64,000 nt of DNA from contig JAHIQM010000011.1 of assembly GCA_018902545.1 (NCBI GenBank), forward strand, positions 62,001 to 126,000. Direction: 5' to 3'. Within the stretch, counting starts at the first letter, position 1. Every line of letters begins with the position of its first letter. The stretch is from Pseudomonadota bacterium. GTDB taxonomy: Bacteria; Desulfobacterota; Desulfovibrionia; Desulfovibrionales; Desulfomicrobiaceae. Positions 5,258 through 43,000 of the stretch are shown in pieces. A model generated the notes under the pieces. It ran no database searches and was not told the origin of the DNA. It worked only from the letters and a program-made list of their open reading frames with translations. The position numbers were made by a program, and so were the translations under genes.

Positions 5258-5278
5258 CTGATCAGTGCGATGTGCGGG

Positions 5279-6752: not shown

Positions 6753-6777
6753 TAAGCTGAGCGCTTAAGGAGCATCG

Positions 6778-22060: not shown

Positions 22061-22204
22061 CGATATTCCGCGTAACCTTTAGATGTTGAAGATTCTGTTG
22101 ACAGTTATTCCTCCTCGCCGTCGCTTTCTCCCACGCATTTTCATCATGGAGTCGGTCTGTTGCACACAGAACTGCTCAATTTTCCCATTCGGCACGCACT
22201 TTGC
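22061..22204 (+). promoter_or_regulatory. Sigma54 promoter and upstream activator box of the sulfur operon
   Basis: GGCACGCACTTTGC at 22191-22204 is a perfect -24/-12 element. A box CGATATTCCGCGTAACC ends at 22077, exactly 114 bases before the -24 GG. The same box with the same 114-base spacing occurs before the hemerythrin gene (62584-62600 to 62714). TCTGT-N5-ACAGA near 22157 is an additional dyad. A weak IHF-like match is at 22150-22162. Confidence 0.8.
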
Positions 22205-22363: not shown

Positions 22364-23188
22364 ATGAGTATGTTGAGCACCAAAGACGGAACAGAAATCT
22401 ACTACAAAGACTGGGGTGCCGGACAGCCTGTGGTGTTCAGCCACGGTTGGCCCCTCAATTCCGATAGTTGGGAAGCGCAGATGTTGTTTCTGGCCTCCCA
22501 CGGTTTTAGGTGCATCGCCCATGACCGGCGCGGCCATGGGCGCTCGAGCCAGCCGTGGGGTGGAAATGACATGAACACCTATGCCGACGACCTCGCGGAA
22601 CTGATGGAGTCGCTTGATCTGGAGTCAGCCGCCCTTATCGGTTTTTCGGCAGGCGGGGGAGAGATAACTCGCTACATTGGCCGTTATAGCACGCAGCGTG
22701 TGTCCAAGGCCGCTTTGATTGCCGCCGTCCCGCCACTTATGCTGAAAACTTCGGCCAATCCGGAGGGGTTGCCGATGGAGACGTTCGACGAGGTTCGCAA
22801 GGGATCCATTGTCGACCGCTCGCAGTTTTACAAGGAACTTGCCGGTGGTCCTTTTTTCGGAGCCAACAGGCCTGGCGCCAGTGTTTCGCAAGGCATGATC
22901 GATTCGTTCTGGCTGCAGGGAATGCTGGCTGGGCACAAGAATACTTTCGACTGCATCAAGGCGTTCTCCGAAACCGACTTCACCGAAGATCTCAAGAAAT
23001 TTGATGTGCCGACGCTCATCGTGCACGGCGACGACGACCAGATCGTGCCAATCGGAGCAGCGGCTATCCGTGCTTCGACCCTGGTCAAGGGATCTGTCCT
23101 GAAAATTTACGAGGGCGCTCCCCATGGTCTCGCCTACACGCACAAAGACCGACTCAATGCCGACCTGCTGGCATTTTTGAAGGCGTGA
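22364..23188 (+). CDS. Non-heme haloperoxidase-type alpha/beta hydrolase
   Basis: A 274-residue alpha/beta hydrolase. Ser95 lies in the elbow IGFSAGG, the acid is in [10 protein letters not shown], and His is in [24 protein letters not shown] and [13 protein letters not shown] are characteristic of the chloroperoxidase/arylesterase group, which hydrolyses esters and forms peracids from H2O2. The ATG at 22364 follows GGAGATAG; another ATG four codons upstream is less well placed. It is the first gene of the run expressed from the sigma54 promoter at 22191. Physiological substrate unknown. Confidence 0.88.
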
Positions 23189-23412
23189 TGCCGACCAGAG
23201 AAGTGGCATGTCATGAATCGAAAGGAAGAGATGCGGGCAGCGTGGACGCCAAAGATCATGTGGCTTTTATCGCCGCGGCGCAGACACGGCAGTGGGACAG
23301 GGGATAATCCGTTCGGACTTATGCATGAGGCGAGGCGGGTTGATGTACTGATGCGGGGCGTTCGGCATGCATGAAATCCGACGTCCAACGACAACAACAA
23401 GGGAGAATAATC

Positions 23413-24036
23413 ATGAACTACGACAGCTTGAATTGTGAATTTCTACAGGTTTTGCCTTTTTTGCCCTACGCGGAAAACGCGTTGGAGCCCGTAATTTCCG
23501 CGAAGACGATCAGTTTTCATTACGGCAAGCATCACAAGGGCTATGTCGACACCCTCAAAAAGTTGGTGGCCGGAACGCGGTTTGAGGACATGCCCTTGGA
23601 GAAGATCATGAGCGAGACAGACGGCAAGAGCGACAGCACCGCCATCTTCAATAACGCGGCGCAAGCATGGAACCACACCTTCTACTGGCAAAGCCTGAGA
23701 CCGAAGGGTGGCAGCGAGCCGACCGATGTGTTGCAGAAGAAGATCGAGGTATCCTTCGGTTCCCTCGATGCCTGCAAGAAAGAACTTGCGACCGCGGCCA
23801 TGGCGCAATTCGGCAGCGGGTGGGTATGGCTTGTGCTGGACAGTGACATGCTCAAGGTTGTCAAGACCGCAAACGCGGGGGTGCCCATGACCATGAGCAT
23901 GAAGCCGCTGTTGACCATCGATGTGTGGGAGCACGCCTACTATCTGGATTACCAGAACCTGCGCGCGGACTATGTGAAGGCTGTGCTGGACACGTTGATC
24001 AATTGGGAATTTGTGGCGGAGAATCTCGGCTGCTGA
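23413..24036 (+). CDS. sodB: Superoxide dismutase, Fe/Mn family (probably Fe)
   Basis: A 207-residue enzyme converting superoxide to H2O2 and O2. Metal ligands are His36 (FHYGKHH), His88 (NHTFYW), Asp170 and His174 (DVWEHAYY). The Tyr-containing NHTFYW and FGSGW segments fit the iron form, but metal choice is inference. There is no signal peptide, so it is cytoplasmic. The ATG at 23413 follows AAGGGAGA. It sits between the haloperoxidase and persulfide dioxygenase genes, placing superoxide removal within the sulfur-oxidation run. Confidence 0.93.
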
Positions 24037-24121
24037 CCTTCACACGGCCACAAAAGAAGAAGGTAAGATGAACTGATATAAAAATGATCATTCAACATGA
24101 ATCATAAGAACAGGAATCCTT

Positions 24122-25534
24122 ATGGCACTCATTTTTGAACGCATACACACCGATGGAATTGCCGAGCTTTCCTATCTGGTCGGCGATGATTCCAAAGGCG
24201 TAGCCGCAGTGTTCGATCCACGTCCGGATGTTGACTGCTACCTGCAGCTCGCCCGCGAGAAAAAGGTATCAATTACGCACATTTTTGAAACACACATCCA
24301 TGTCGATTTCGTCAGCGGTGCGCGAGAACTATGTGCGCGTCTCAAGTCAGCGAAAATATACCTCAGTCACGAAGGAGGCGCGCGCTACGGCTTCGACCAT
24401 GAGGGGGTCACAGATGGAGATGTCTTTGAACTTGGTTCCGCTCTCATTACCGCTCGACACACGCCCGGCCACTCGCCAGAGCACATGGCATATCTGCTAT
24501 CGGAAAAGGAGCATCCGGACGCACCGTGGGGGGTACTCACCGGGGACTCGCTCTTTGTCAATTCCGCCGGGCGCTCCGACCTCCTCGGCAGTAGCCAGGC
24601 TAAAGAGCTGGCCGAAAAACTGTTCCATACGCTGAACGATTTTTACCTGAAGCTCAACGATGGCGTCATTATCTACCCGACGCATGGTCAGGGATCGCCC
24701 TGCGGGGAGGACATCGGCGACCGGCTCAGCAGCACCATTGGTTATGAACGGCGCTTCAATGCGTTCCTCCAGTTTAACAATGCCACAAGTTTCACCGAGC
24801 ACACGCTCACCGACGCGGCGCCGATCCCTACCTATTATCCGTTGATGGAGACTCTGAACACCAAGGGGCCCATGGTGCTCGGCAACCTGCCGCCAGTGCC
24901 CGGACTTCCTCCCAAATTCTTTCAGGAAGCCATTGAGGGCAACGACAACGTTCTCATCGATACCCGCATGATGCTCGGATTTGGTGGAGGGCATATCAAG
25001 GGAGCGCTCAGCATCGGCGGCTTGCCCGTACTCTCCATCTGGGCCGGCTGGTTGCTGGACCCCGACCAACCCATCCTGCTCGTCCTCGATTCCGATGATA
25101 TGCTCGAAACAATCGTCCGCTATTTTGTCCGTACGGGCTACACCAAGTTCGCCGGCTACCTTGTCGGCGGCATGACTGCATGGAACAACGCCGGACTGCC
25201 GCTGGAATCGGTCGGGCAAACGACAGTCCACGAAATCAAAAACGAAGGCCAAGAACTGCAGGTTCTCGATGTACGCGCACCGAGCGAATGGAAAGAAGGC
25301 CACATCCCCAATGCCCGCCATATTTTCCTGGGCGAATTGCGCGAACAACTCGGCACGTTGGACAAGGCCAAGCCGACCGCCGTCTATTGCGACAGCGGGT
25401 ATCGTGCGAGCATCGCGACGAGCATTTTGCAGCAGCACGGGTTCGGCGGCGTCTGCAACATTCCCGGAAGCTGGCAAGCATGGGAAAATGCGGGATACCC
25501 GGTCGAAAAAGAGATCGAGAAGGAGAAGAAATAA
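24122..25534 (+). CDS. Persulfide dioxygenase-rhodanese fusion
   Basis: A 470-residue protein. Residues about 1-235 are a metallo-beta-lactamase fold of the ETHE1/persulfide dioxygenase type (FETHIHVDFVSGAREL, RHTPGHSPEH, LTGDSLFVNSAGRSDL). Two rhodanese-like domains follow. The first (about 270-365) lacks a Cys (LLVLDSDDM at the loop). The second has Cys423 in VYCDSGYRAS. The family oxidises glutathione or CoA persulfide to sulfite with O2; the rhodanese can move sulfane sulfur. The two-base gap to the next permease gene shows operon structure. Resembles CstB-like architectures. Confidence 0.9.
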   Translation: MALIFERIHTDGIAELSYLVGDDSKGVAAVFDPRPDVDCYLQLAREKKVSITHIFETHIHVDFVSGARELCARLKSAKIYLSHEGGARYGFDHEGVTDGDVFELGSALITARHTPGHSPEHMAYLLSEKEHPDAPWGVLTGDSLFVNSAGRSDLLGSSQAKELAEKLFHTLNDFYLKLNDGVIIYPTHGQGSPCGEDIGDRLSSTIGYERRFNAFLQFNNATSFTEHTLTDAAPIPTYYPLMETLNTKGPMVLGNLPPVPGLPPKFFQEAIEGNDNVLIDTRMMLGFGGGHIKGALSIGGLPVLSIWAGWLLDPDQPILLVLDSDDMLETIVRYFVRTGYTKFAGYLVGGMTAWNNAGLPLESVGQTTVHEIKNEGQELQVLDVRAPSEWKEGHIPNARHIFLGELREQLGTLDKAKPTAVYCDSGYRASIATSILQQHGFGGVCNIPGSWQAWENAGYPVEKEIEKEKK

Positions 25535-25536
25535 TC

Positions 25537-26160
25537 GTGAACACGAACATGCTTTCTCCCGGTCACTTGATTTCAAGGTGCGCCGCGTATTTCATCGGCA
25601 GCCTCCTGTTCATAGGCGTCGCAGCCGATGCGGGGGCGAGCGTGGATGCGCTTGATTATCCGGGACCGGCCTGGTCACCCTATCTTGTCGGCGCTGCCAT
25701 TGGAGTGCTTTCCTGGCTAACCTTTTACTTTTCCAACAAGACCATTGGGGCCTCCTCCTTTTACGCGCAGCTCGCGGGTTTTCTCGGTAAACTCATCGCG
25801 CCCCGCCACATGGCCTCGCTCACATATTTCAAAGACAACCCGCCGCGCGTGAGTTGGGGATTCGTCTTCGTGGTCGCAACCATTGTGGGCGGCGCCATTG
25901 CCGCCCTGACGGGCGGCGAGTTCGCCAATGAATGGCTGCCGCCCATATGGGAGGCACGCTTCGGCGACAGTGTTGCATTGCGTGCGGCCATCGCCTTTCC
26001 CGGCGGTATGCTGATGGCCTTTGGGGCGCGTCTGGCCGGAGGTTGCACCAGCGGCCACGGCATCAGCGGAACCCTTCAGCTCAACATGGCTTCGTGGATT
26101 GCAGTGATTTGCATTTTCGTTGGTGGTGTCGCCGTGGCCCTGCCGCTTTTTAAACTGTGA
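25537..26160 (+). CDS. YeeE/YedE-type sulfur-compound permease, first half
   Basis: A 207-residue membrane protein with about five hydrophobic segments. The signature is LAGGCTSGHGISGTLQL, the conserved Cys-containing motif of the sulf_transp family (thiosulfate uptake in E. coli YeeE). The start is GTG at 25537, two bases after the previous stop, with AGGAG upstream; an ATG four codons later is an alternative. Together with the next gene it makes a two-part permease. The presence next to persulfide dioxygenase implies transport of thiosulfate or sulfane sulfur. Confidence 0.85.
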   Translation: MNTNMLSPGHLISRCAAYFIGSLLFIGVAADAGASVDALDYPGPAWSPYLVGAAIGVLSWLTFYFSNKTIGASSFYAQLAGFLGKLIAPRHMASLTYFKDNPPRVSWGFVFVVATIVGGAIAALTGGEFANEWLPPIWEARFGDSVALRAAIAFPGGMLMAFGARLAGGCTSGHGISGTLQLNMASWIAVICIFVGGVAVALPLFKL

Positions 26161-26167
26161 GGTGCGT

Positions 26168-26761
26168 ATGATTGATCCCGGCAAAGCCGTAAAGCAATCG
26201 ACGGAAAAGTCCGCCCCACGTGTGGCCGCGGCTCCCACACTGATTGCCGGCGCGATGTTTGGTCTGGTGTTTGGCTTCCTTCTGCAGAAAGGGGGCGTTG
26301 GAAAATATAATGTGCTCATCGGCCAACTGCTTCTTCAGGACTGGACCGTCGTGAAGATCATGCTCACCGCAATTGTCGTCGGCATGATCGGCGTATTCCC
26401 GTTGCACCATTTCGCCAAAGTGAACCTGCATATCAAGCCGACCAGGATCGGTGCCAACATCATTGGTGGGCTTGTGTTCGGCGCTGGTTTTGCGTTGGTG
26501 GGCTATTGCCCTGGAACTGCTGCAGCTGCGCTGGGTCAGGGAAGTTGGGACGCGCTCTTTGGCATGGCCGGGCTTATCGTCGGTTCGTGGATTTTTGCCG
26601 AATTTTCGGGATTGACCAAACGAACAATAGAGAAATGGGGCGACCTTGGCAAAGTGTTGCTTTCCGATCTGTTGCCAGTGCCGCGCGGCGTGTTTGTGGT
26701 TGGTTTTGCATTGGCGCTCAGCGCAATACTTATGATTTTACAGCAATTCACAATCCGATGA
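26168..26761 (+). CDS. YeeE/YedE-type sulfur-compound permease, second half
   Basis: A 197-residue membrane protein with the second conserved motif LVGYCPGTAAAALGQG. The ATG at 26168 follows GAGGTG and lies 7 bases after the stop of the first half. Split YedE halves (often called PmpA/PmpB) next to persulfide dioxygenase or rhodanese genes are a known arrangement. Together the pair would form one channel for a reduced sulfur compound across the inner membrane. Confidence 0.85.
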   Translation: MIDPGKAVKQSTEKSAPRVAAAPTLIAGAMFGLVFGFLLQKGGVGKYNVLIGQLLLQDWTVVKIMLTAIVVGMIGVFPLHHFAKVNLHIKPTRIGANIIGGLVFGAGFALVGYCPGTAAAALGQGSWDALFGMAGLIVGSWIFAEFSGLTKRTIEKWGDLGKVLLSDLLPVPRGVFVVGFALALSAILMILQQFTIR

Positions 26762-26859
26762 CAACAAAATTGCTTTGCAGAAAGACTGAAAAGAATGCAC
26801 TTTAAATGTACAGTTATGCAAAAATCATAGATAATATTTGAATGTCATAGGAGATATCA

Positions 26860-27306
26860 ATGCATCCGTACAGAAATTTCATTTTGATGATCACTGTGTC
26901 TGCAACACTGATGTTTTTCTTGATGTACCTGAACAATTACCAGTTTAGCCATGTGTGGTTTAGCCAAACTCGATTTTTCATGACCTTCATCATGGCTGGC
27001 TCCATGGCGCTCGTCATGCTCTTCTTCATGCGCCATATGTACAAAGACAAGAAGGCAAATATAGCAATTGTTATTGGAAGCGTTGCACTTATGGGCTTAG
27101 GCTTTTTTTTGGTTCGCAGTCAGGCAACTGTAGGAGATGTCGCTTGGATGAAGGCGATGATTCCTCACCATTCGATAGCAATACTCACAAGTGAGCGCGC
27201 CAATATTAGTGATTTTCGTGTCAGAAAGCTTGCGGACGACATCATTGAAGCCCAGCGCCGAGAGATTGAGGAGATGGAAGTCCTGATCAAGGATATCGAT
27301 GATTAG
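26860..27306 (+). CDS. DUF305-like membrane protein
   Basis: A 148-residue protein with three hydrophobic helices in the first 85 residues (ILMITVSATLMFFLMYL, FFMTFIMAGSMALVMLFFM, IAIVIGSVALMGLGFFLV). The C-terminal segment WMKAMIPHHSIAILTSERA and the RREIEEME end match the DUF305 (ferritin-like, metal-associated) family. Its job is unknown; relatives are found in metal resistance and sulfur clusters. About 98 bases separate it from each neighbour, but all point the same way. Confidence 0.75.
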   Translation: MHPYRNFILMITVSATLMFFLMYLNNYQFSHVWFSQTRFFMTFIMAGSMALVMLFFMRHMYKDKKANIAIVIGSVALMGLGFFLVRSQATVGDVAWMKAMIPHHSIAILTSERANISDFRVRKLADDIIEAQRREIEEMEVLIKDIDD

Positions 27307-27404
27307 TCAACGAAAAACTCGCATCAGGTCTTAGCCGTCTACATTGTGAGAAGACCGCAAAGATTGAAATTAGAGCGTATGGTAAATTACTAAGGAGGTA
27401 TAGT

Positions 27405-28334
27405 ATGACGGCCGAAAATATGACGGATACTCCCATTTACGTTGCCCTGAATATGTCAAAAGTTGTGAACAATGAAGAAAGTTTCGATCTGATGCACAAA
27501 GTGGGGCCACGGGTATGTATCACCACTGCAACCCACCCGGGATTTGTCGGTTTTATGGCCAACATCCAAACAGGCATTTTACCTCTTGCAGGCAGATTTG
27601 GGGGCGGTAGTATTCACATGGAAAATACACTGAACCCTGTCCGCAACTATCAGTATACCATGTGGAAACATTGGAAAGATCATGACGAATTCCATGAAAA
27701 ACAATTCAACAGGATTTTTGAGCTGTGTACCAGTTGTCTGGAGATGGTGGTAGAAGGTCCTTGGGAACCAGTTTACAGCGTTGTCTACGCAAAAATGCCG
27801 ACTGTTCGATCTATGGGGCAAATCGCCGATCTCGGTAAAGATTTCATAAAGCAAAAAGATTTTATCCGCTTTGCCACGCCACAGCGCTGTGTCGCCATCG
27901 GCGAACATACGGTGGCTCCGGGGCGGGAAGAGGCATTTGAAAAAGGTGCCATCGAGACGATGGAAGCCTTGTCGGACTCAACCGGTTTTCTCGGGTATAT
28001 GATTTTGAAGCAAATCGGGGTCTGTGCATTAGGCAGCTTCATGCTGGACCCGACGTCAATGGCAGAAACACTGCAGACACTCGGAGCCAATCCTCCAAAA
28101 AACCCAAGACCGCTCTTTAAAACATTGGATGCCGTGCCAAGCCCGCCCGAATATCTCATTCACAGCGAATGGGACGCGACGGAAATGGCCCAGATGGGTT
28201 TTGCAAAAGTTCTGGTGAACCATACCATCAGAAAAATACACGATGATGGCGTTATGGCCCATCTTATCCGCGGTCCATACATCATGTTTTTCAAGCCAAT
28301 GATGGAAGAACCTGGTTGGAGGTCCTTTTTGTGA
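27405..28334 (+). CDS. sor: Sulfur oxygenase reductase (SOR)
   Basis: A 309-residue protein colinear with Acidianus ambivalens SOR. Cys38 (VGPRVC), His93 and His97 (WKDHDEFHEK), Cys108 and Cys111 (CTSC) and Glu121 (GPWEPVY) correspond to Cys31, His86, His90, Cys101, Cys104 and Glu114, all with the same offset of 7. The archaeal enzyme is a hollow 24-mer with a mononuclear iron site, converting elemental sulfur plus O2 to sulfite, thiosulfate and sulfide without cofactors. HPGFVGF, QIGILP-like and MMEEPGWR segments also match. AAGGAGG is six bases before the ATG. No signal peptide, so cytoplasmic. Confidence 0.92.
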   Translation: MTAENMTDTPIYVALNMSKVVNNEESFDLMHKVGPRVCITTATHPGFVGFMANIQTGILPLAGRFGGGSIHMENTLNPVRNYQYTMWKHWKDHDEFHEKQFNRIFELCTSCLEMVVEGPWEPVYSVVYAKMPTVRSMGQIADLGKDFIKQKDFIRFATPQRCVAIGEHTVAPGREEAFEKGAIETMEALSDSTGFLGYMILKQIGVCALGSFMLDPTSMAETLQTLGANPPKNPRPLFKTLDAVPSPPEYLIHSEWDATEMAQMGFAKVLVNHTIRKIHDDGVMAHLIRGPYIMFFKPMMEEPGWRSFL

Positions 28335-28449
28335 TGAAAGTCGTGGCTATCGTTCCGTTGAACGGTGAGAGGCCCTTCGACTATGACCTGGAAAAAAACC
28401 GACCGACCGGTCATGTCCAACCCCGTTAGGCAAACAAAAAGAGAGAGTT

Positions 28450-30219
28450 ATGTATTACAGCAATGGCAACTATGAAGCTTTCGCCCGCCCGCGCAAACCC
28501 AAGGGGGTAGAGAACAAAACGGCCTGGTTTGTCGGCGCGGGCCTGGCGGCATTGGCGGGCGCGGCCTTCCTGATCCGCGACGGCCAGATGCCGGGCAACC
28601 GGATCACCATCCTGGAGCAGCAACAGTTGCCCGGTGGCGCGCTGGACGGCATCAAGGAGCCGAACAAGGGCTTCGTGATCCGCGGCGGGCGCGAGATGGA
28701 AGAGCACTTCGAGTGCCTGTGGGATCTGTACCGCTCGATCCCGTCGCTGGAGATCGAGGGCGCCAGCGTGCTCGACGAGTTCTATTGGCTCGACAAGGAC
28801 GATCCGAACTCCTCTTTGCAGCGCGCCACTGTGAATCGAGGCGAGGACGCGCATACCGACGGCCTGTTCACCCTCAGCGAGCAGGCGCAGAAGGAGATCG
28901 TCAAGCTCTTCCTCGCCACCGGCGAAGAGATGGAGAACAAGCGCATCAACGAGGTATTCGGCAAGGAATTCCTGGACAGCAATTTCTGGCTGTATTGGCG
29001 CACGATGTTTGCTTTCGAGGAGTGGCATTCGGCGCTGGAGATGAAGCGGTATCTGCACCGTTTCATCCACCAGATCAAAGGCATGCCGGACTTTTCCACG
29101 CTGAAGTTCACCAAATTCAACCAGTACGAATCGCTGGTGCTGCCGCTGGTGAAGTGGCTGCAGGAACATGGCGTGGTGTTCGAGTACGGTACCGAGGTCA
29201 CCGATGTCGATTTCACCATCGCACCCGGACGCAAACAGGCTACCCGCATCCACTGGCGCAGGGACGCAGTCGAAGGCGGCGTCAATCTCGGCCCCGACGA
29301 CCTGGTGTTCATGACCATCGGCTCGCTCACCGAGAACTCCGACAACGGCGACCACCACACGCCGGCAAATCTCAATGTAGGGCCTGCGCCGGCATGGGAT
29401 CTGTGGCGACGCATCGCCGCAAAGGATCCGGCGTTTGGCCGCCCGGACGTGTTCGGCTCGCACATCTCCGAGACCAAATGGGAGTCGGCCACCGTCACTA
29501 CGCTCGATGAGCGTATCCCGAAGTACATCCAGAAGATCGCCAAGCGTGATCCGTTCAGCGGCAAGGTGGTGACAGGCGGCATCGTGACCGCGAAGGACTC
29601 ATCCTGGCTGCTCAGTTGGACGGTGAACCGGCAACCGCATTTCAAAGAGCAGCCCAAGGGCCAGATCGTGGCTTGGGTCTACGCGCTGTTCGTCGAGCAA
29701 CCCGGCGATTACGTGAAGAAGCCCATGCAGGACTGCAGCGGCGAGGAGATCACCCAGGAATGGCTCTACCACATGGGCGTGCCGGTCGAGGACATCCCCG
29801 AACTGGCGTCAACGGGTGCGATAACCGTGCCGGTGATGATGCCGTACGTGACCGCCTTCTTCATGCCACGCCAGGCCGGTGATCGCCCGGACGTGGTGCC
29901 CGAGGGCGCTGTCAATTTCGCCTTCATTGGGCAGTTCGCGGAATCGAGAGAGCGCGACTGCATCTTCACCACCGAGTATTCCGTACGAACACCGATGGAG
30001 GCTGTCTACACACTGCTCGACGTCGAGCGCGGCGTGCCGGAGGTATTCAACTCCACCTACGACATTCGTACGCTCCTGTCCGCGACCGGTCGCCTGCGCG
30101 ACGGCAAGGAGATCGACATCCCGGGTCCTGCATTCGTGCGCAATCTGCTGATGAAGAAGCTCGACAAAACCCAGATCGGCGCACTGTTGCGCGAGTTCGG
30201 TATTGTCGCGGACGATTGA
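28450..30219 (+). CDS. ohyA: Oleate hydratase (myosin-cross-reactive antigen family)
   Basis: A 589-residue FAD-binding protein. The FAD-binding loop AWFVGAGLAALAGAAFL follows a short N-terminal tail, and GGALDG, RGGREMEEHFECLWDLY and FNQYESLVLPLVKWL are hallmark segments of oleate hydratase. The enzyme adds water to the cis-9 double bond of oleate, giving 10-hydroxystearate, and acts on free fatty acids at the membrane. The gene looks more G+C-rich than its neighbours, which suggests separate acquisition. AGAGAG precedes the ATG. Its place in a sulfur run is unexpected; a membrane-stress role is inference. Confidence 0.92.
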   Translation: MYYSNGNYEAFARPRKPKGVENKTAWFVGAGLAALAGAAFLIRDGQMPGNRITILEQQQLPGGALDGIKEPNKGFVIRGGREMEEHFECLWDLYRSIPSLEIEGASVLDEFYWLDKDDPNSSLQRATVNRGEDAHTDGLFTLSEQAQKEIVKLFLATGEEMENKRINEVFGKEFLDSNFWLYWRTMFAFEEWHSALEMKRYLHRFIHQIKGMPDFSTLKFTKFNQYESLVLPLVKWLQEHGVVFEYGTEVTDVDFTIAPGRKQATRIHWRRDAVEGGVNLGPDDLVFMTIGSLTENSDNGDHHTPANLNVGPAPAWDLWRRIAAKDPAFGRPDVFGSHISETKWESATVTTLDERIPKYIQKIAKRDPFSGKVVTGGIVTAKDSSWLLSWTVNRQPHFKEQPKGQIVAWVYALFVEQPGDYVKKPMQDCSGEEITQEWLYHMGVPVEDIPELASTGAITVPVMMPYVTAFFMPRQAGDRPDVVPEGAVNFAFIGQFAESRERDCIFTTEYSVRTPMEAVYTLLDVERGVPEVFNSTYDIRTLLSATGRLRDGKEIDIPGPAFVRNLLMKKLDKTQIGALLREFGIVADD

Positions 30220-30279
30220 ACAGACTTCTTCGCATGGCCTCTTTCGGAGATCCGCCTAGCGGCAATGAGGGTTTAGATA

Positions 30280-31728
30280 ATGGCAAATAGAACGTCTCTC
30301 ACTGTTATTCAACTCAACGACAGCCATGCCTATTTTGATCTCCACCAGGAGATGTTCTGGCAGGGAGGTCAGGCAGTCTATCGTCTCGCGGGAGGATATG
30401 CCCGCATTGCCACCATCGTAAAGCAGATTCGAGCCGCGAACCAGGAGCGTGTCCTCTTTTGCGACTGCGGCGATACTCTCCACGGCACCTATCCCGCCCA
30501 GAGTACGCAGGGCCAGGCAATGATCCCTGTGTTGAATTCATTGGGTCTCGACGCGATGACGGCCCATTGGGAATTTGCCTACGGCCCCGCGGCCTTCAAA
30601 CAGCTCGCAGCGGAGCTCAGTTATCCGATGCTGGCGATCAATATATACGATCAGGCGACAAAAGAGCGGTTTTTCCCACCGTACAGCGTGAAGGAGATCG
30701 GCGGATTACGGATCGGTCTGGTAGGCGTTGCCTGCAACATTATAGACAAAACCATGCCGCCTTCCTTCAGCGAAGGTCTGGAATTCACTCTCGGTCGAGA
30801 AGAACTTCCTTCCATCATCAATGATCTGCGCACCAGCGAGAAGGTGGACCTGGTCGTCCTCATCTCCCATCTCGGATTTCCCCAGGACATGAAGCTGGTA
30901 TCGGAGGTGGGGGGAATTGATGTGTGCTTAAGCGGGCATACCCATAACCGCCTCTATAAACCGGCTGTTCAGGGGAAAACGCTCGTCATCCAATCGGGCT
31001 GCCACGGTTCTTTCCTGGGGCGCCTGGATCTGGAAATTGATGGCGGCCGCGTCGTTGATTACCGGCACCAACTGATAGAGGTGGAATCCACGATAACCCC
31101 CGATCCCGCAGTGGATGACCTCGTCCGCCAGGCCCTCACGCCGCATCAGGAAGAATTATCAATGATTGTGGGTGAAACGGCTACGGCGCTCAATCGAGGC
31201 ACCACGCTGGAAACCACGATGGACAATTTCCTGCTGCAGGCGCTGCAGGAAAGTACGGGCGCGCAATTGGCATTTTCCAACGGTTGGCGCTACGGCGCAC
31301 CGGTCATTCCGGGGGAGGTAACGCTAAATGACCTCTATAACATCATTCCGATGAACCCGCCGGTCTCAACGGTCGAACTGCTGGGCGAGGAAATTGTCGC
31401 GATGCTGGAGGAAAATCTGGAACGGACGTTTGCCCGCGATCCGTACGACCAGATGGGTGGTTACGTTAAACGCAGCCTTGGCCTCAAGGCCTGCATCAAG
31501 ATCGAGAATCCTCCCGGACAGCGCGTGCAGCAAGTTTTTGTCGGCAATGAAGAGCTGCAACCAGGGCGCTATTACCCCACGACGTATGTTACTCAGCAGG
31601 GCGTCGCACACAAGTACGGGCGCAACCACCAACAGCACACTGAGCGGAGCATAGATGCGCTGAAGGCATATCTGACCCGGCACCGCCCGCTACGCGCAGA
31701 AATTCGCGGCACGTTCGTCGCGGTATAG
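30280..31728 (+). CDS. SoxB-like metallophosphoesterase/5'-nucleotidase family protein
   Basis: A 482-residue two-domain protein: metallophosphoesterase (QLNDSHA at 11-17, CDCGDT, SHLGF, SGHTHN) and 5'-nucleotidase C-domain (SNGWRYG, NPPVSTVELLGEEI). The usual GNHEFD metal motif is replaced by MTAHWEFAYG (His96, Glu98), which is the form I associate with thiosulfohydrolase SoxB. SoxB removes sulfate from a SoxYZ-bound sulfane. Here there is no Tat or Sec signal, and no soxYZ or soxAX in the window, so a cytoplasmic relative with a different thiol carrier is possible. Function is inference. Confidence 0.68.
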   Translation: MANRTSLTVIQLNDSHAYFDLHQEMFWQGGQAVYRLAGGYARIATIVKQIRAANQERVLFCDCGDTLHGTYPAQSTQGQAMIPVLNSLGLDAMTAHWEFAYGPAAFKQLAAELSYPMLAINIYDQATKERFFPPYSVKEIGGLRIGLVGVACNIIDKTMPPSFSEGLEFTLGREELPSIINDLRTSEKVDLVVLISHLGFPQDMKLVSEVGGIDVCLSGHTHNRLYKPAVQGKTLVIQSGCHGSFLGRLDLEIDGGRVVDYRHQLIEVESTITPDPAVDDLVRQALTPHQEELSMIVGETATALNRGTTLETTMDNFLLQALQESTGAQLAFSNGWRYGAPVIPGEVTLNDLYNIIPMNPPVSTVELLGEEIVAMLEENLERTFARDPYDQMGGYVKRSLGLKACIKIENPPGQRVQQVFVGNEELQPGRYYPTTYVTQQGVAHKYGRNHQQHTERSIDALKAYLTRHRPLRAEIRGTFVAV

Positions 31729-31740
31729 GAAGGAAATCAC

Positions 31741-32514
31741 ATGAACATTGATTGGATTGTAACGTTGTGGTCGGCTCTTGTTGTTCTGGTTGCGACTACA
31801 GTGCACGGCATTACCGGTTTCGGTACAGGCCAAATCACAATGGGAGTGCTTCCGTTCTTCCGCGATGCGGGTTCAGCTTCCATTGTTGTCTCCATTATCG
31901 TTTTCATCACGAATGTGCGTGTCTTTTGGAGCGTACGGGACGAGTTTAATTGGAAGGACTGGCTTATTCCAGTAGCAGGACTGGCAGCAGGCCTTCCCAT
32001 AGGAATTTACCTGTTTGGAGCCTGGGATGAAGCTCAGCTCCGCATGGCCATAGGCATCGTAATGATCATTAGCGCCGTGGTACTTTTGCTGCTGCGTCAG
32101 ATTAAGTCGATTCGAGAATGGATAAAGGGCACCGGATGGCAGCCTGGATGGATCAGCGGCGTGGTGGCTGGATTTCTGTCGGGCATCTTTGGTGGTGCAG
32201 TATCGATTCCCGGGCCTCCGATGATCATATATGGGGCGTTTTTGATGGAGACCGATTACTGGACTGCGAAGCAGATGAAGGCCATCTTTACTTCATTTTT
32301 TGCTGCCAACCTGCTTTACCGGATAGTTGTGTTGACCTCCATGGGAAAGATGACGACCGCGATTGCGGTCGAGGCGCTGGCAATTGTTCCGGCAGCGTTT
32401 TTAGGGGCCTGGCTTGGCATCAAGCTGTTCGCTATCATGCCGCGAGAGTTATTCCGCTGGTTCATTATCGCCTTTATCTTCGTACTCGGAGTCTTACTGA
32501 CCATCGGAATTTAG
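31741..32514 (+). CDS. TauE/SafE (TSUP) family permease, possible sulfite exporter
   Basis: A 257-residue membrane protein with about eight hydrophobic segments. HGITGFGTGQITMGVLPFF and SGVVAGFLSGIFGGAVSIPGPPMIIY are the paired half-repeats typical of the TSUP family. Members export sulfite, sulfoacetate or other organosulfonates. It begins 12 bases after the SoxB-like gene, so sulfite made by SOR or persulfide dioxygenase is an attractive substrate, although this is context only. Confidence 0.85.
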   Translation: MNIDWIVTLWSALVVLVATTVHGITGFGTGQITMGVLPFFRDAGSASIVVSIIVFITNVRVFWSVRDEFNWKDWLIPVAGLAAGLPIGIYLFGAWDEAQLRMAIGIVMIISAVVLLLLRQIKSIREWIKGTGWQPGWISGVVAGFLSGIFGGAVSIPGPPMIIYGAFLMETDYWTAKQMKAIFTSFFAANLLYRIVVLTSMGKMTTAIAVEALAIVPAAFLGAWLGIKLFAIMPRELFRWFIIAFIFVLGVLLTIGI

Positions 32515-32536
32515 AATAGCCAAGAGGAGAAGTGAA

Positions 32537-34054
32537 ATGGGCGACAAAACAAAAACCAGCTTAACGATCTTGCACACCAACGATATGCACGGCCGTTACC
32601 GGCCCATCACAGTCATTAAAGGCAGCGCCACCTCCCAAACCGGCGATCCGGGGCGGAGCTGGGATGAGTTTGACCGGGAAGGCACCGCCGGTGGTTTCGC
32701 AGCTCTGGCAACGGCTTTGAAGCGTATTCGACTGGAACGGGGGGCGGATAATGTCCTGCTCGTGGACGGAGGGGATACATTCAGCGATGATCTGCTGGGA
32801 AATTTGACCCGCGGCGAGGCCGTGATCAGGCTGATGAATTCCGTGGGCTATCAGTTAATGGCTTTGGGCAACCACGACTATGACTTTGGAAGCGAGCGGA
32901 CTCGCGAACTCGATGAGATCGCGAATTTCCCCATGCGGGCCGCAAACGTGGTTGAAGTAAAGACGGGCCAGCCATTTCTGGGAGATCCTACCATTGTCTT
33001 CCAGGCGGCAGGCATCCGGGTCGGCTTTCTCACCCTGACGTATCACAATACCGGATTTACAGGAAATCCGAAGAACTACGAAGGATTGGAGTTCAAGGAC
33101 GGGATCGAAGCGGTCCGCCGATACCTGCCTGATCTGCGCGAGCGCTCTGACTTGGTGGTTGTGCTTTCCCACCTCGGTTCAGCAATGGACCGTGTTCTGG
33201 CGCGTGAAGTGCCCGAGATGGACATCATCATCGGCGCGCACTCTCACGACCGCATCTCTAACGAGCGGATCGGGGATATTACCCTCGTGCAGGCTGTTTC
33301 AGACAACTCGGTCCTGGGGGAGATTGAGGTCAGCCTCCATGGAACGCAGATCACCAAGGTGGAAAGCCGCCTGCATACGTTATGGCTCGACGAGTTCCCG
33401 GAAGATGAAGAGATCGTCCGGCAGGTCGCTGCGTTGCGCGCGCCATATCAAGATACCCTGGAAGAGGTCATCGCAATCGCCGCAGAGCCGATTGGCCGAC
33501 ATTACCGTTCGGAAAGTCCCTTTGATAAGCTGGTAGGAGAGATCATATGCGCCGAGACCGGGGCTGAAATCGCCTTTATGCCGGGCGTGGGCTACGGGGT
33601 GACGCTGCATCCCGGAGCGATCACGCGCGAAGCACTCTACACCCTTATTCCTCATCCTGCCAAGTTGGTGACGATGCAATTGACCGGTGATCGTGTCCTT
33701 GAAATCCTCGAGCAATGCGCCACCAATCAGGCTCCGGGCGATCCTCGCCTGATCGTGGGCGGCCTGGTTCAAACTGCCGGTTTACGCTGGAGCGTGGATT
33801 TTGCTCAACCTTCGGGCAGCCGGGTGTCGGCTGTTTACGTTCGAAACGAGGCTCTCCTAAAAGACAAAAGTTATATCATCGGCACCAATGCCGGTATGGC
33901 GCGTGGGCTGCACCGGTATACAGCTTTTACAAAAGGCCAGGATGTGGTGATCCACGATCTTCAGGTCAACGAATTGGTTGAAAAGGCTTTTGCCAGGATG
34001 GGTACGGTCAGTTCGCCCAAGTTGGGTGATATCACTTTACAAGGAAAAGAATAA
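32537..34054 (+). CDS. 5'-nucleotidase/UshA-family metallophosphoesterase
   Basis: A 505-residue protein with canonical motifs LHTNDMHG, VDGGDTF, LGNHDYDFG, LSHLGS and GAHSHD, followed by a 5'-nucleotidase C-terminal domain. Unlike the neighbour at 30280 it keeps the GNHD motif, so it is a conventional metallophosphoesterase. It has no signal peptide. The two paralogues flank the TauE/SafE gene with gaps of 12 and 22 bases. It could act on nucleotides or on a sulfur adduct; the sequence does not decide. GAGGAGA precedes the ATG. Confidence 0.8.
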   Translation: MGDKTKTSLTILHTNDMHGRYRPITVIKGSATSQTGDPGRSWDEFDREGTAGGFAALATALKRIRLERGADNVLLVDGGDTFSDDLLGNLTRGEAVIRLMNSVGYQLMALGNHDYDFGSERTRELDEIANFPMRAANVVEVKTGQPFLGDPTIVFQAAGIRVGFLTLTYHNTGFTGNPKNYEGLEFKDGIEAVRRYLPDLRERSDLVVVLSHLGSAMDRVLAREVPEMDIIIGAHSHDRISNERIGDITLVQAVSDNSVLGEIEVSLHGTQITKVESRLHTLWLDEFPEDEEIVRQVAALRAPYQDTLEEVIAIAAEPIGRHYRSESPFDKLVGEIICAETGAEIAFMPGVGYGVTLHPGAITREALYTLIPHPAKLVTMQLTGDRVLEILEQCATNQAPGDPRLIVGGLVQTAGLRWSVDFAQPSGSRVSAVYVRNEALLKDKSYIIGTNAGMARGLHRYTAFTKGQDVVIHDLQVNELVEKAFARMGTVSSPKLGDITLQGKE

Positions 34055-34099
34055 CTCCTGCTTGATCTTTGCCCATGGAAGGATCGGAGAAGAGATACT

Positions 34100-35914
34100 A
34101 TGACAATGGAAATCGGGCTGGTTTTTGCCATACTGGGAATCTCCATGCTGCTGTTTATAACCGGTTGGATCCGTGCGGATATCGTTGCGGTATTGGTGCT
34201 CGTTTCGCTGGCAGCTACCGGCCTGTTGGAGGTGGAGGAGGTTCTGAAGGGCTTTAGCAGCGAAGCCGTCATCGCCATCGCCGGCTTGTTGATATTGAGC
34301 GCCGGATTGGTGCGCAGCGGGGTGGTCCGCTGGATCGCGGAGCGGCTGAACAACATTGCCCGAGGGAGTCGCAAACGGTTGACCTTGACGAGCTCCCTGG
34401 TCCCAGGCGTCCTGTCAGGCTTTGTGAGCGATATAGCCACCGTTTCGTTATTCATTCCGGTGGTCCTCCGGCTGGCACGCAAGAACGATATCCACCGCTC
34501 AAAGCTGCTCCTGCCCATCGCCATGTCTGCTCTGGCAGGTGGAAACCTGACCATGATCGGGGCCTCGCATAACCTTGTGGTAAACGATTTGCTTCGATCA
34601 TCGGGTCAGCCTGCACTTGGATTTTTCGAAATTGCGCCGGTAGGTATTGCTCTGATCATTTCTTTCGCTGTCTACACCTTGGTTCTGGGGCAACGCCTGT
34701 TGCCGGGCGAAAATGAAAAGGGCGTCGTCAAAAGCCGGGAAGATAGCTCCGGTTTAATGCGGACATACCATCTGGAAGATCGTCTTTGGGAGGTTCTGCT
34801 CCTGGACGATTCTTCCTGGGTGGGGAAGACGTTGCAAGAAATCGCACTCGGTGGTGGGCACGGACTTACGGTCTTGTCTGTTGTACGCCATGACGAACCC
34901 CAGCTTCATAATCGAGTGGATTTTGTACTGGAGAAGCAGGACGTGCTGCTGGTGAGCGGGCGCAGGACAAGGGTCGATAAACTGGTGCAGGAATATCCCG
35001 GACTCAAAGTTTTGGGGCATCCCAGCCAGCCTGAAAAATTTCCGTCGTCCAGTGGAGAGTTGATCGAAGTGGTTGTTCCACCGCGCTCACCTATGGTCGG
35101 CAAGACCATGACTGATTTGAATTTTCGCACTGAAACCTGCCTCACGGGCGTAGCGATCTGGCGTGCGGATAAACCCATTCGTACCGATGTGGGAACCACT
35201 CCCCTGCAAGAAGGAGACGCACTGCTGCTTTATGGCCCGGGCGATCAGACGCGCAGCTATGATCCCAGGCCGGGTTTCTTGTGGTTGCATAAGCCACATC
35301 CGGAGGAAGCTCCCCGTAGGCTGCGCCACCTCGGCAAGTGGGCCGCCTTGATTATGGCCGGGGTGGTTGCTTTGGCAGCTTTCAATCTGCTGCCTATTGC
35401 CGTGGCGGCGCTGGGAGGCGCAGCCTTAATGGTTCTGATTGGCATTCTGCCCTTGCGGCAGTTATATGAACATGTGGAGTGGCGTACGATTGTACTCGTC
35501 GGGGGTATGTACCCGTTGGGACTTGCGATGGAGAAAAGCGGAGCGGCTGGACTGGTTTCAAGCCTTATAGCAGATACTTTGGGTACACTTGGTCCGCATA
35601 TCACCATGATCGGGATCACGTTGATCGCCCTGCTCCTGACGCAGGCCCTGCACGGGGCAGCTGTAGCTGTGATCATGACTCCTGTAGCATTGGATACAGC
35701 CAGCCTGCTAGAGATCGAGCCGACCGCGTTTGCAGTCGCCGTTATTGTGGGGGCCGCGGCCACATACCTGCTGCCGGAAGGACATCCGGCGCCCCTGATG
35801 GTACAGAGTCCCGGGTCTTATGAGACCAGCGATTATCTCAAGTTCGGGGCCGGGCTGGTGGCTATCACCCTGGCTATTGTGGCAGGGCTCGTTCCCATTA
35901 TCTGGCCTTTCTGA
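34100..35914 (+). CDS. SLC13/DASS-type permease with internal TrkA-C (RCK) domains
   Basis: A 604-residue membrane protein. The N-terminal half has the SLC13-type membrane region (SSEAVIAIAGLLILSAGLVRSG, AGGNLTMIGASHNLVVNDLL). Two cytosolic TrkA-C-like domains follow around 215-400 (WVGKTLQEI, SPMVGKTMTDLNF), then the second membrane half ending HPAPLMVQSPGSY. This architecture is common in sulfate or dicarboxylate carriers. Following the sulfite-type permease, sulfate or another sulfur oxyanion is a plausible substrate. The ATG at 34100 follows GGAGAAGAG. Confidence 0.82.
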   Translation: MTMEIGLVFAILGISMLLFITGWIRADIVAVLVLVSLAATGLLEVEEVLKGFSSEAVIAIAGLLILSAGLVRSGVVRWIAERLNNIARGSRKRLTLTSSLVPGVLSGFVSDIATVSLFIPVVLRLARKNDIHRSKLLLPIAMSALAGGNLTMIGASHNLVVNDLLRSSGQPALGFFEIAPVGIALIISFAVYTLVLGQRLLPGENEKGVVKSREDSSGLMRTYHLEDRLWEVLLLDDSSWVGKTLQEIALGGGHGLTVLSVVRHDEPQLHNRVDFVLEKQDVLLVSGRRTRVDKLVQEYPGLKVLGHPSQPEKFPSSSGELIEVVVPPRSPMVGKTMTDLNFRTETCLTGVAIWRADKPIRTDVGTTPLQEGDALLLYGPGDQTRSYDPRPGFLWLHKPHPEEAPRRLRHLGKWAALIMAGVVALAAFNLLPIAVAALGGAALMVLIGILPLRQLYEHVEWRTIVLVGGMYPLGLAMEKSGAAGLVSSLIADTLGTLGPHITMIGITLIALLLTQALHGAAVAVIMTPVALDTASLLEIEPTAFAVAVIVGAAATYLLPEGHPAPLMVQSPGSYETSDYLKFGAGLVAITLAIVAGLVPIIWPF

Positions 35915-36052
35915 AGATGATGCTGCAACCGGGTTCCATAGCATTCAAATAAAGTTTATGGGGAGATAGCAGGGAGGAAAAACTTTGTCGCCCATCCCCG
36001 GCCGTTAACGCAGTCAAGATCTTGATCATAAAGGCTTTAGAAGGAGTCCGAA

Positions 36053-37330
36053 ATGGCTGCTTTCCGATCGATTCGTCTGTGGCATTCGTGCATATATCTG
36101 CTCGTTTTGATTACAACGGGATGCGGCATGTCGTACCGTGAAAAGGTTGTTGAACACCCTATTCCTCGTCTTTACGGGACGGAAGACCCGCAATTTTCCC
36201 GTACGATGGGGACATTGCTCGGCTCGGACATCCTCGATGGTAATCGAGTTGAGGTGCTGTTGAACGGTGACGAGATCTTTCCCGCCATGCTGCAAGCAAT
36301 CCGTAGCGCCAAAACAACCATCACCTTCGAAACCTTCATCTATTGGTCCGGCTCGATCGGCAGTGATTTTTCGAACGCCCTGGCCGAACGTGCTCGCGCA
36401 GGCGTCAAGGTTCATGTCCTGCTGGATTGGATCGGCAGTTACAAGATGGACGCATCTCAGCTCGAATTGATGGAGCAGGCCGGTGTCGAGGTGAAGAAAT
36501 TTAATAAACCGCACTGGTATCAGTTAGGTCGATTGAACAATCGCACACACCGCAAGCTGCTGGTTGTCGACGGACAGATCGGTTTTACGGGTGGTGTTGG
36601 AATCGGAGATCAATGGTCTGGGCATGCGCAAGACCCTGAACATTGGCGCGATTCGCACTATCGGTTCCAAGGCCCCGTGGTGGGGCAGATGCAAGCTGTC
36701 TTTATGGACAACTGGATCAAAGTCAGCGGTGATGTACTGCACGGCCCCGCGTATTTCCCTGCGTTGCAGCCCGTCGGCTCCGGCAAGGCGCACGTGTTCA
36801 GCAGCTCTCCGTCAGGGGGAAGCGAAAGCATGCGACTCATGTACCTGCTTGCAATCACCGCCGCGAGCCGCACCATTCACCTTTCCACTCCGTACTTCAT
36901 TCCCGACGCATTGACGATCCAAACACTCACCGATGCCGCAAAGCGCGGCGTGACCATCCAGATCATAACAGTCGGCGAACACGCAGACAGTGAGACGGTA
37001 AGGCGTGCATCCCGGGCACGCTGGGGCGACTTACTCGAAGCGGGGATTGAAATACATGAATATCAGCCGACCCTGTACCATTGCAAAGTGATGATCGTAG
37101 ATGGGCTGTGGACATCGGTGGGCTCGACAAATTTCGACCCCCGTTCCTTCAGCCTGAATGACGAGGCGAATGTAAACTATTACGACCGCGATTTTGCCCT
37201 GCGTCAGATCGAAATTTTTCAAGAAGACTTGGCGCTTTCGCGACAGGTAACATTCCAGGAGTGGAAGGACCGGCCGCTTTTTGAAAAATTATGGGAGAAT
37301 GCTGCATCGCTTCTCGGTTCTCAGCTATGA
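36053..37330 (+). CDS. Phospholipase D family protein, cardiolipin synthase-like (ClsB type)
   Basis: A 425-residue protein. It has an N-terminal hydrophobic segment and a weak lipobox at Cys24 (ITTGC). Two HKD motifs: His166-Lys168-Asp173 (HRKLLVVDG) and His343-Lys345-Asp350 (HCKVMIVDG). Spacing and the FIYWSG and STPYFIPD segments match bacterial cardiolipin synthases, which join two phosphatidylglycerols or phosphatidylethanolamine and phosphatidylglycerol. It closes the same-strand run; 138 bases separate it from the SLC13 gene. It converges with phosphoketolase. Confidence 0.88.
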   Translation: MAAFRSIRLWHSCIYLLVLITTGCGMSYREKVVEHPIPRLYGTEDPQFSRTMGTLLGSDILDGNRVEVLLNGDEIFPAMLQAIRSAKTTITFETFIYWSGSIGSDFSNALAERARAGVKVHVLLDWIGSYKMDASQLELMEQAGVEVKKFNKPHWYQLGRLNNRTHRKLLVVDGQIGFTGGVGIGDQWSGHAQDPEHWRDSHYRFQGPVVGQMQAVFMDNWIKVSGDVLHGPAYFPALQPVGSGKAHVFSSSPSGGSESMRLMYLLAITAASRTIHLSTPYFIPDALTIQTLTDAAKRGVTIQIITVGEHADSETVRRASRARWGDLLEAGIEIHEYQPTLYHCKVMIVDGLWTSVGSTNFDPRSFSLNDEANVNYYDRDFALRQIEIFQEDLALSRQVTFQEWKDRPLFEKLWENAASLLGSQL

Positions 37331-37436
37331 CCTACGCGTTTGATCCCAGGGATACAGTCTAATCACCATTTTTTTTCGCCGTCATGAGACGATAGAACAT
37401 GTCGGATAACATCGTGGATCCTGGCGAAAATGTTCA

Positions 37437-40276: not shown

Positions 40277-40418
40277 CGTTATATATGGCTACTTCGTTAT
40301 ATATGTCGGATGCTGCTGACGGCTTTCTTCTTCCCCTGCCCGCTCTATTTTTATTAATTCTTTATAATCAGCATGTTGCGCGAGAGCGGTCGCAGGCCTG
40401 CGATGGCACGCTAGTTGC
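40277..40418 (+). promoter_or_regulatory. Sigma54 promoter with IHF site and direct-repeat activator site
   Basis: GGCACGCTAGTTGC at 40405-40418, preceded by T, is a perfect -24/-12 element. AATCAGCATGTTG at 40366-40378 is a perfect IHF consensus, 27 bases upstream. Two copies of CGTTATATATG at 40277-40287 and 40295-40305 lie about 100 bases before the -24 and are a good candidate for activator binding. The catalase/CsbD run follows. Confidence 0.84.
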
Positions 40419-40885: not shown

Positions 40886-43000
40886 ATGAGCAAAGAAATG
40901 AAAAAGGATTACTCAGAAAAAAGCACTCGGGAAAAGGGTTCGGCTCCCAGCGCAGACTCACAATTGGCTGCCAGCGGCGAGCTGCACCAGATCGCCGGAG
41001 GAGAGCACTCCGCGCTTACCACGAACCAGGGCGTTGCACTGTCCGATAATCAAAATTCGCTCAGGGCCCATCCGAGCGGCCCGACGCTTCTGGAGGATTT
41101 CATCCTCCGCGAAAAAATCACCCACTTCGATCACGAACGGATCCCCGAACGTATCGTTCACGCCCGAGGCACGGGCGCGCATGGATTTTTCGAACTGACC
41201 GCCTCGCTCAAGCAGTACACCACCGCCAGGATACTCACCGAAGTAGGTGAGAAGACACCACTCTTTACCCGCATATCGACCGTCGCCGGCGGCGCGGGTT
41301 CGATCGACACCCCGCGCGACGTGCGCGGCTTTGCCGTCAAGTTCTATACCAAGGAAGGCAACTGGGACCTGGTTGGCAACAACGTTCCGGTATTTTTCAT
41401 CCAGGATGCCATCAAATTTCCCGACCTCATCCATGCCGTCAAAATGGAACCCGACCGTGGCTTTCCTCAGGCAGCAAGCGCCCACGATACTTTCTGGGAT
41501 TATATTTCGCTCACGCCGGAATCCATGCATATGGTGATGTGGATCATGTCCGATCGCACCATACCGCGTTCGCTGCGGATGATCGAAGGCTTCGGGGTGC
41601 ATAGTTTCCGGCTCATTAACGATGCGGGTGAATCGACCTTCGTCAAATTTCACTGGCGCCCCAAGCTCGGCTTGCAGTCCACCATATGGGACGAGGCCGT
41701 CAAGATTGCCGGGGCTGATCCGGACTTCCATCGCCGTGACATGTTCGAAGCCATCGCGGCAGGCAGCTTCCCCGAGTGGGAATTCGCGGTTCAGCTGTTC
41801 ACGCAGGACGAGGCGGATAAGTTTCCGTTCGACCATCTGGACCCGACCAAGCTGATCCCCGAAGAACTGGTGCCCTTGAAAGTGATCGGCCGGATGGTGC
41901 TCGATCGCTGGCCGGACAACTTCTTCGCTGAAACTGAACAGGTTGCTTACTGCCCAGGCAATATCGTGCCAGGCATCGATTTCTCCAATGATCCGCTGCT
42001 GCAAGGTCGTTTGTTTTCCTATATCGACACGCAACTGTCGCGCCTGGGTTCACCCAATTTCCACCAGATCCCGATCAATGCGCCCAAGTGCCCGTTCGGC
42101 AATCTTCAACGCGACGGACACATGCAGATGGCCCCACAGTCGGGCCGTGTTGCATATGAACCCAATTCCCTGTCTGCAAACTCCCCGCGCGAGAACCCGG
42201 CCAAGGGCTTTCGCAGCGCTGCGGTCACTGAAACCGGCGTTAAAGGCCGTATCCGTGCCGAAAGCTTCGCCGACCACTACAGCCAGGCGCGGCAGTTCTA
42301 TCTCAGCCAAAGTGCGTATGAGCAGGCGCATATCGCTTCGGCGCTCGTGTTCGAGCTTTCCAAAGTCGAACATCTGCACGTGCGCGAGGCGATGGTCGGC
42401 CATCTGCGACATATTGAAGAAGACCTCGCCAAGCGGGTCGCCGCAGGACTTGCGCTCGACAAAATGCCCGTAGCGCCGCCAGCCGCAGCGCCCGTGCAGG
42501 AGATGAAGCTGTCACCCGCGCTGCAGATCATCGGCAAGATGAAAAACACGCTCATGGGGCGCGCGATCGGCATACTGATCGCCGATGGTTCTGACGGCGC
42601 AGTCATCAATACTATTAAAAAGGCCGCAACCGATGCGGGTGCCGCCGTGAAGATCATCGCCCCCAAGGTCGGAGGGGCGAAGCTTGCCGATGGCTCGATG
42701 TTGGCGGCTGACGGACAACTGGCCGGCACTCCTTCCGTGCTGTTCGACACAGTCGCCGTGATCCTCTCTGGCGAAGGTGCACAGGCACTGTCGAAGGAAA
42801 GCGCCGCGATCGATTTCGTGCGCGATGCTTTCGGACATCTCAAGGCAATCGCCGTCGACAAAGGCGGTCGCGCTCTATTGAAAACAGCGAATATCGAGCC
42901 AGACGCTGGTGTCGTTGATGCCAGCGACAAAGACGCCTTCATCACCATGGCCAAGACTCGCCAATGGGACCGGGAAAAGTCTGTACGGACATTGGCCTGA
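40886..43000 (+). CDS. katE: Large-subunit monofunctional catalase (KatE/HPII type)
   Basis: A 704-residue heme catalase. The distal His92 lies in [10 protein letters not shown], Asn165 in [10 protein letters not shown], and the heme-ligand Tyr379 in [16 protein letters not shown]-terminal domain of about 150 residues ([15 protein letters not shown] onward) is the DJ-1/glutamine-amidotransferase-like fold found only in large catalases. It decomposes H2O2 to water and O2 in the cytoplasm. TGGAGAC precedes the ATG. It is 75 bases after the CsbD-like frame and likely shares the sigma54 promoter at 40405. Confidence 0.95.

Follow-up and report, generated by a model that had tools for sequence, protein, structure and literature searches.

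The 64-kb stretch of DNA analysed here (the window) contains a run of 13 open reading frames (ORFs), all on the plus strand, at positions 22364-37330 (about 15 kb). The first ORF, a haloperoxidase-like alpha/beta hydrolase (22364..23188) matching chloroperoxidase F in the PDB (E 8.5e-144), starts with ATG at 22364 in a frame that opens upstream at TTG 22334. It is followed by an Fe/Mn superoxide dismutase (SOD, 23371..24036), a CstB-like persulfide dioxygenase (PDO) with two rhodanese domains, the first of them Cys-less (24122..25534), two YeeE/YedE halves, i.e. half A (Sulf_transp, 25537..26160) and half B (Sulf_transp/DUF6691, 26120..26761), a small membrane protein with a partial DUF305/CopM-like match (26860..27306), and a sulfur oxygenase reductase (SOR, 27405..28334). 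Further downstream are an oleate hydratase (28450..30219; 897.1 bits on NF010584, above the cut-off of 567), a putatively cytoplasmic SoxB-like hydrolase (30280..31728), a TauE/SafE-type permease (31741..32514; 91.9 bits on the TauE model), a second protein of the SoxB/5'-nucleotidase superfamily, a metallophosphoesterase with the nucleotidase-type GNHD motif (32537..34054), an SLC13/DASS-type (CitMHS) permease with TrkA_C domains (34100..35914), and a PLD-type cardiolipin synthase (36053..37330; 287.7 bits against a cut-off of 290). Family models, supplemented by motifs and PDB matches, were used for these assignments.

A same-strand run of these families had been named in the original prediction, and both the ORFs and the family models confirm it, with the gene order kept in a second genome of the genus (G015, locus L003). 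Its length had been put at fourteen kilobases instead of 15 kb, and its gaps at 2-224 bases, while the 12 intergenic gaps computed on the run extend from -41 to +182 bases; the -41 arises where the two YeeE halves overlap, and a gap of 2 bases separates the end of the PDO gene from the GTG start of half A at 25537. The naive probability of such a run on one strand is 2.4e-4; bacterial genomes often carry long stretches of genes on one strand, which makes recurrence in other genomes a better test than strand chance. The remark that no terminator was seen is fair and carries little weight, since terminator-like sites are at the level of shuffled sequence (17 versus 15.5 ± 4.0); the same is true of sigma-70-like sites (12 versus 10.8 ± 3.2).

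The SOR matches Pfam PF07682 at 506.8 bits (cut-off 25) and is approximately 44-50% identical to the SORs of Acidithiobacillus and Thioalkalivibrio; its score of 313.5 bits on NCBIfam equivalog NF047630 lies under the cut-off of 400, which counts against the reading favoured below. Residues C38, H93, H97, E121, C108 and C111 align to solved SOR enzymes, and we take them to be the catalytic Cys, the two His and the Glu that bind iron, and the Cys pair. The same residues are kept across the eight SORs aligned, one of which is a fragment that lacks the first Cys region. SOR was found in two of 61 relatives, in ten of 395 genomes of the phylum (nine exceeding the cut-off), and at 60 loci in the named genome collection; the viral contigs and plasmids searched contained no SOR relatives, and a phage or plasmid origin was rejected on that ground. 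Its presence in the phylum is already known, as 33 of the 39 SOR-bearing metagenome-assembled genomes (MAGs) in PMC12345210 belong to Desulfobacterota. SOR is called cytoplasmic in the same paper. A Tat-like N-terminal signal was observed on the SORs of six of 17 wider-clade loci (L028, L029, L032, L036, L038, L041) and also on that of L018, and these enzymes may be exported; the signal was flagged by motif search in L029, L036, L041 and L018 and seen by eye in L028, L032 and L038. The PDO matches PDB 3tp9 and 3r2u (the latter presumably CstB) end to end with E values of 2.9e-81 and 5.7e-60, and over its full length consists of MBL, Cys-less rhodanese and active-type rhodanese domains. Proteins matching it at E <=1e-50 are present in 11 of 21 relatives, at 35-100% identity.

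The host genome (G000, 99.8% complete) carries DsrA (599.4 bits) with a second Dsr-like match beside it and cytochrome bd (CydA); no match to a haem-copper oxidase (COX1) was found in it, and COX1 is present in eight of 21 relatives. By gene content the host is probably a sulfate or sulfite reducer able to meet O2, and the "anaerobe" of the original prediction is plausible for a genome with DsrA, cytochrome bd and no detected haem-copper oxidase. SoxY (PF13501) was detected in none of the six genomes that carry the modules described below, G000 included, and the same model found it in four of five other genomes; a full Sox system is therefore not supported.

The congener has all 13 genes in an unchanged order (83-97% protein identity), interspersed with additional ones; between its SOD and PDO genes lie hemerythrin-like, ABC-ATPase and SufB/D-like genes (L003 10428-12802), and a SufB/D-like gene is likewise found upstream of SOR in L041 (8307-9530). 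Synonymous divergence (dS) between the two congeners is 0.67-4.0 for 13 orthologues to the left of the window (two not computable) and 0.10-0.59 for the island genes at 22334-58731, with dS values of 0.54, 0.92, 1.21, 0.44 and 0.54 for the intermediate genes at 11712, 13836, 14643, 19425 and 20285, respectively. The lowest values belong to cardiolipin synthase (0.096), oleate hydratase (0.112) and the 5'-nucleotidase (0.174). DNA identity is 91-93% over the block 24107-37335 and 70-87% in the segments on its left side, as far as 21.8 kb. The low dS suggests that the island moved between species by transfer or recombination, strong constraint being the weaker alternative. By the same dS comparison the island extends beyond the run to a long, HPII-like catalase gene on the plus strand (40886..43000). 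The region 40886-63343 is a wider stress island of mostly low dS, containing catalase, YflT, a PA2171-like hemerythrin protein, a Rieske oxidoreductase, a mechanosensitive channel and a second hemerythrin.

Candidate sigma-54-type promoter elements (pattern TGGCACG-N4-TTGC, one mismatch or fewer) precede the first gene (22190..22204, plus strand, one mismatch, its core conserved in the congener) and the catalase gene (40404..40418, plus strand, exact); the catalase-type element is present again in the congener, upstream of PDO. Six sites fall in the window against 2.16 ± 1.43 in shuffles (one of 100 shuffles reached six) and none in 40 kb of window flanks. Four lie outside the ORF set (20228, 22190, 40404, 62713) and the other two inside small unassigned ORFs. 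Three of the nine exact sites in the genome are in the window, an enrichment with a binomial probability of 4e-4 in a test picked after the sites were known; the reversed pattern gave 0. Neither an SQR nor an ArsR/CstR repressor or a sigma-54 activator was recognised within or near the run, nor a GAFTGA-type activator gene in the stretches read; this result and the mismatch in the run's own site count against the reading favoured below. The run is probably sigma-54-controlled, judging from these promoter-like elements.

Recurrence divides the 13 genes, which the original prediction had treated as one unit, into two modules plus accretions, and in the congener a second sigma-54-type site precedes PDO. 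Module A (SOD, CstB-like PDO, the YeeE/YedE pair, cardiolipin synthase and the haloperoxidase-like hydrolase) is found on one strand and without SOR in G029, a member of another family of the order, with identities of 69% (SOD), 86% (PDO), 84% (YeeE half A), 76% (half B), 54% (cardiolipin synthase) and 66-71% (hydrolase); an SLC13 gene at 88% identity is located about 12 kb beyond it. The oleate hydratase, DUF305 and 5'-nucleotidase genes accompany SOR only in the two congeners, and outside the genus no counterpart of theirs was seen close to SOR, the 25-28% nucleotidase matches near other SORs being SoxB-like genes; a single core operon of all 13 genes was rejected for this reason. Oleate hydratase in particular is not supported as a core gene: among 21 relatives it is limited to the two congeners and a broken fragment in one more, and its GC3 is 0.82 (SOR 0.52, SoxB-like 0.65). 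It stands between SOR and the SoxB-like gene in both congeners and is probably a late insertion that split this pair.

Module B consists of SOR followed directly by the SoxB-like gene. In a survey of the 60 SOR loci plus L023 it is intact in L026 and L039, with overlaps of 1 and 4 bases, and its fragments remain in L027 and L023. The window, L003, L025, L026, L027, L039 and L040 group in a single SOR subclade (support 0.97), in which the SoxB-like gene is present or a remnant in five of six testable members; L025 has none within 784 bases of SOR, and the L040 contig stops at SOR and was not counted. At 14 of the 17 loci of the wider clade no SoxB-like gene lies beside SOR (one locus untestable, some flanks short), which also counts against the favoured reading; module B is limited to one SOR subclade. 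Across the 395 genomes of the phylum the SoxB-like protein has a match of at least 73% identity in three, the remaining matches being at or below 34%: the window genome (SOR in the run), G093 (SOR adjacent), and G204, an 81% complete genome in which TauE is next door and whose absence from the SOR list counts against the favoured reading. TauE adjoins a close SoxB-like gene in another family (L104). Two loci were not counted as module B, since the SoxB of L082 is a true SoxB (761 bits) and the genome of L074 has SoxY.

Other genes of the run recur near SOR as well: PDO and/or YeeE in L025, L026, L028, L030, L040 and L023 (its SOR broken), SLC13 in L030, L040 and L079, cardiolipin synthase in L023 and, on the opposite strand, in L082, and catalase in L074 and L076, with fragments in L027. 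With matches required over at least half of the gene, five genes of the run (those for the hydrolase, SOD, DUF305 protein, oleate hydratase and TauE) had no counterpart in the 60 SOR loci. The gene-set recurrence proposed as a check in the original prediction is seen for PDO, YeeE/YedE, SOR, SoxB-like, and TauE beside SoxB-like. A Bacillota MAG contig (L064) contains within 10 kb PDO-rhodanese, rhodanese, a CsoR/CstR-family repressor, a thioredoxin-like protein, TauE, SOR (47%) and a SoxB-like protein (38%), both distant relatives of those in the run, the SoxB-like one without a signal peptide; L067 and L073, two related SOR loci of Bacillota, have nothing but SOR in common with it. L026, L040 and L064 are MAG contigs and may be misbinned. 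As an internal control, window genes were compared with genes near SOR elsewhere (match over at least half of the gene), and those outside the run seldom recur; the exceptions are genes of 43.8-46.2 kb in L025, genes of the catalase region in L074, and one or a few weak matches each for genes 5240, 11712, 47894 and 59247. L023 (10519-14098) is a decayed copy in G217, where SOR and SoxB-like fragments lie directly upstream of a cardiolipin synthase gene that a 564-aa ORF interrupts. L025 has, between SOR and its YeeE pair (5014-8399), two ORFs that resemble LigD and Ku, their N-termini being judged by eye.

Operons that join PDO to a YeeE/YedE pair or to TauE are described as sulfide-detoxification operons in PMC7315123 and PMC5823870, namely bigR yeeE-yedE-pdo2 and sigma-54 FisR pdo-sqr-tauE (Acinetobacter, Serratia, Xylella, Agrobacterium), and the run resembles them in its PDO, its transporters and its candidate sigma-54 site, the Acinetobacter pdo-sqr-tauE operon being under sigma-54 control with its activator (PMC7315123). 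It differs in that no SQR or persulfide-sensing regulator such as an ArsR repressor was recognised among its annotated genes, in its CstB-like MBL-rhodanese-rhodanese type of PDO, and in the addition of SOR, SoxB-like, SOD, hydrolase and cardiolipin synthase genes. CstB-like PDO-rhodanese and TauE are shared with the Staphylococcus cst operon and the Bacillus yrk/sqr-pdo cluster (PMC9918477), but CstR, SQR and CstA are missing from the run, and L064 is the nearer match to cst. A SoxB-family enzyme acting without SoxYZ, beside sulfur dioxygenases and clustered with an MBL-rhodanese protein, is reported for the pathway from thiosulfate to zero-valent sulfur of Erythrobacter flavus 21-3 (PMC7608252); that pathway begins with TsdA and has no SOR, and the SoxB-like protein of the run lacks a signal peptide. 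The SORs of the aerobic sulfur oxidisers Acidithiobacillus and Thioalkalivibrio are of the same family with the same active-site residues, whereas here the neighbourhood is of a defence type in a DsrA-bearing host without detected SoxY. The original claim that this is not a described system thus does not hold for PDO with YeeE/YedE or TauE; it stands for SOR beside a SoxB-like gene, of which no description was met in the open-licence literature searched. The detoxification operon kind is already known, and the SOR and SoxB-like addition in a DsrA-bearing host is the new part.

Our best reading is that the run is a persulfide/oxygen detoxification operon of the bigR/cst/FisR kind, apparently extended by SOR and a SoxYZ-independent SoxB-like enzyme. 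That it is a horizontally mobile, probably sigma-54-controlled operon for the joint removal of reactive sulfur and oxygen, in a member of Desulfobacterota with dissimilatory sulfite reductase, is a proposal we lean towards with modest confidence. The substrates, transport directions, inducer and joint action of the genes are what we infer in the following scheme. When O2 enters a sulfide-rich cell, persulfides and polysulfide would accumulate; the CstB-like PDO-rhodanese would oxidise low-molecular persulfides, and SOR would convert zero-valent sulfur and O2 into sulfite, thiosulfate and sulfide without need of a respiratory chain. The SoxB-like enzyme, having no SoxYZ partner, might release sulfate by hydrolysis from a sulfonated sulfur compound such as a thiosulfonate or polythionate. 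Transport of a sulfur compound would fall to YeeE/YedE, and disposal of sulfite or sulfate to TauE and the SLC13 permease; oxygen species would be handled by SOD, the haloperoxidase-like hydrolase and the nearby catalase, and cardiolipin synthase would adjust the membrane. The linked sulfane-sulfur and O2 chemistry of the original prediction gains support from the recurring PDO, YeeE/YedE, SOR and SoxB-like genes; that YeeE imports sulfur and TauE exports sulfite is presumed from their families, and "stored sulfur" and membrane protection found no support.

The sulfur genes could instead have accreted in a general stress island, beside the catalase, hemerythrin, mechanosensitive-channel and phosphoketolase genes, with SOR and SoxB-like as passengers in no joint pathway. 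The genes at 40.9-63.3 kb are indeed of stress type with the same low dS, and the recurrence of the 43.8-46.2 kb genes in L025 fits as well; but two associations, that of SOR with SoxB-like and that of PDO with YeeE and SOR, are seen again in other families where the remaining island is absent, and the cst-like cluster of L064 includes both SOR and SoxB-like. We regard this account as unlikely, though not negligibly so. Alternatively, the run might support growth on sulfur under microaerobic conditions, the products of SOR passing to Dsr or to quinone-linked enzymes; this would suit an enzyme that serves sulfur oxidisers and a genome with DsrA and cytochrome bd. SOR and PDO, however, conserve no energy according to PMC12345210, no electron-transfer gene was recognised within the run, and SoxY and COX1 were not found in the genome. 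Energy metabolism appears very improbable.

The SoxB-like protein might also be an intracellular nucleotidase with no sulfur role. Its score on TIGR04486 is 351.1 bits, under the equivalog cut-off of 550 (its four relatives score 358.5, 349.7, 346.9 and 226.5 bits), no signal peptide was seen when the N-terminus was read by eye, SoxY was not found, and a nucleotidase-type paralogue, the 5'-nucleotidase, lies two genes downstream. Against this, its best PDB match is SoxB (7.7e-54, versus 1.9e-30 for the best nucleotidase), it and its four relatives carry HWE where nucleotidases have the NHE motif and have invariant Asp/His positions in common, and it is paired with SOR or TauE in other genomes. 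The predicted structure is poor (mean pLDDT 56.6 from a five-row alignment) and was given no weight. A purely nucleotidase function is in our estimate distinctly unlikely.

That sulfate reducers take up O2 and oxidise sulfide and sulfur as they do so is a long-standing observation; to our knowledge the enzymes for O2-linked sulfur oxidation in them are mostly unassigned. Under the detoxification reading, the run offers a small cloneable set (SOR, SoxB-like, PDO and YeeE/YedE) in a DsrA-bearing host, with promoter-like elements, in which a SoxB relative would have to function without SoxYZ. We suggest, tentatively and with some doubt, that SOR and a SoxYZ-independent cytoplasmic SoxB-like enzyme may form a compact non-respiratory route from zero-valent sulfur and O2 to sulfate, and that this route, combined on a mobile island with a CstB-type detoxification operon, could provide one of the enzyme sets responsible for the aerobic sulfur oxidation long observed in sulfate reducers.
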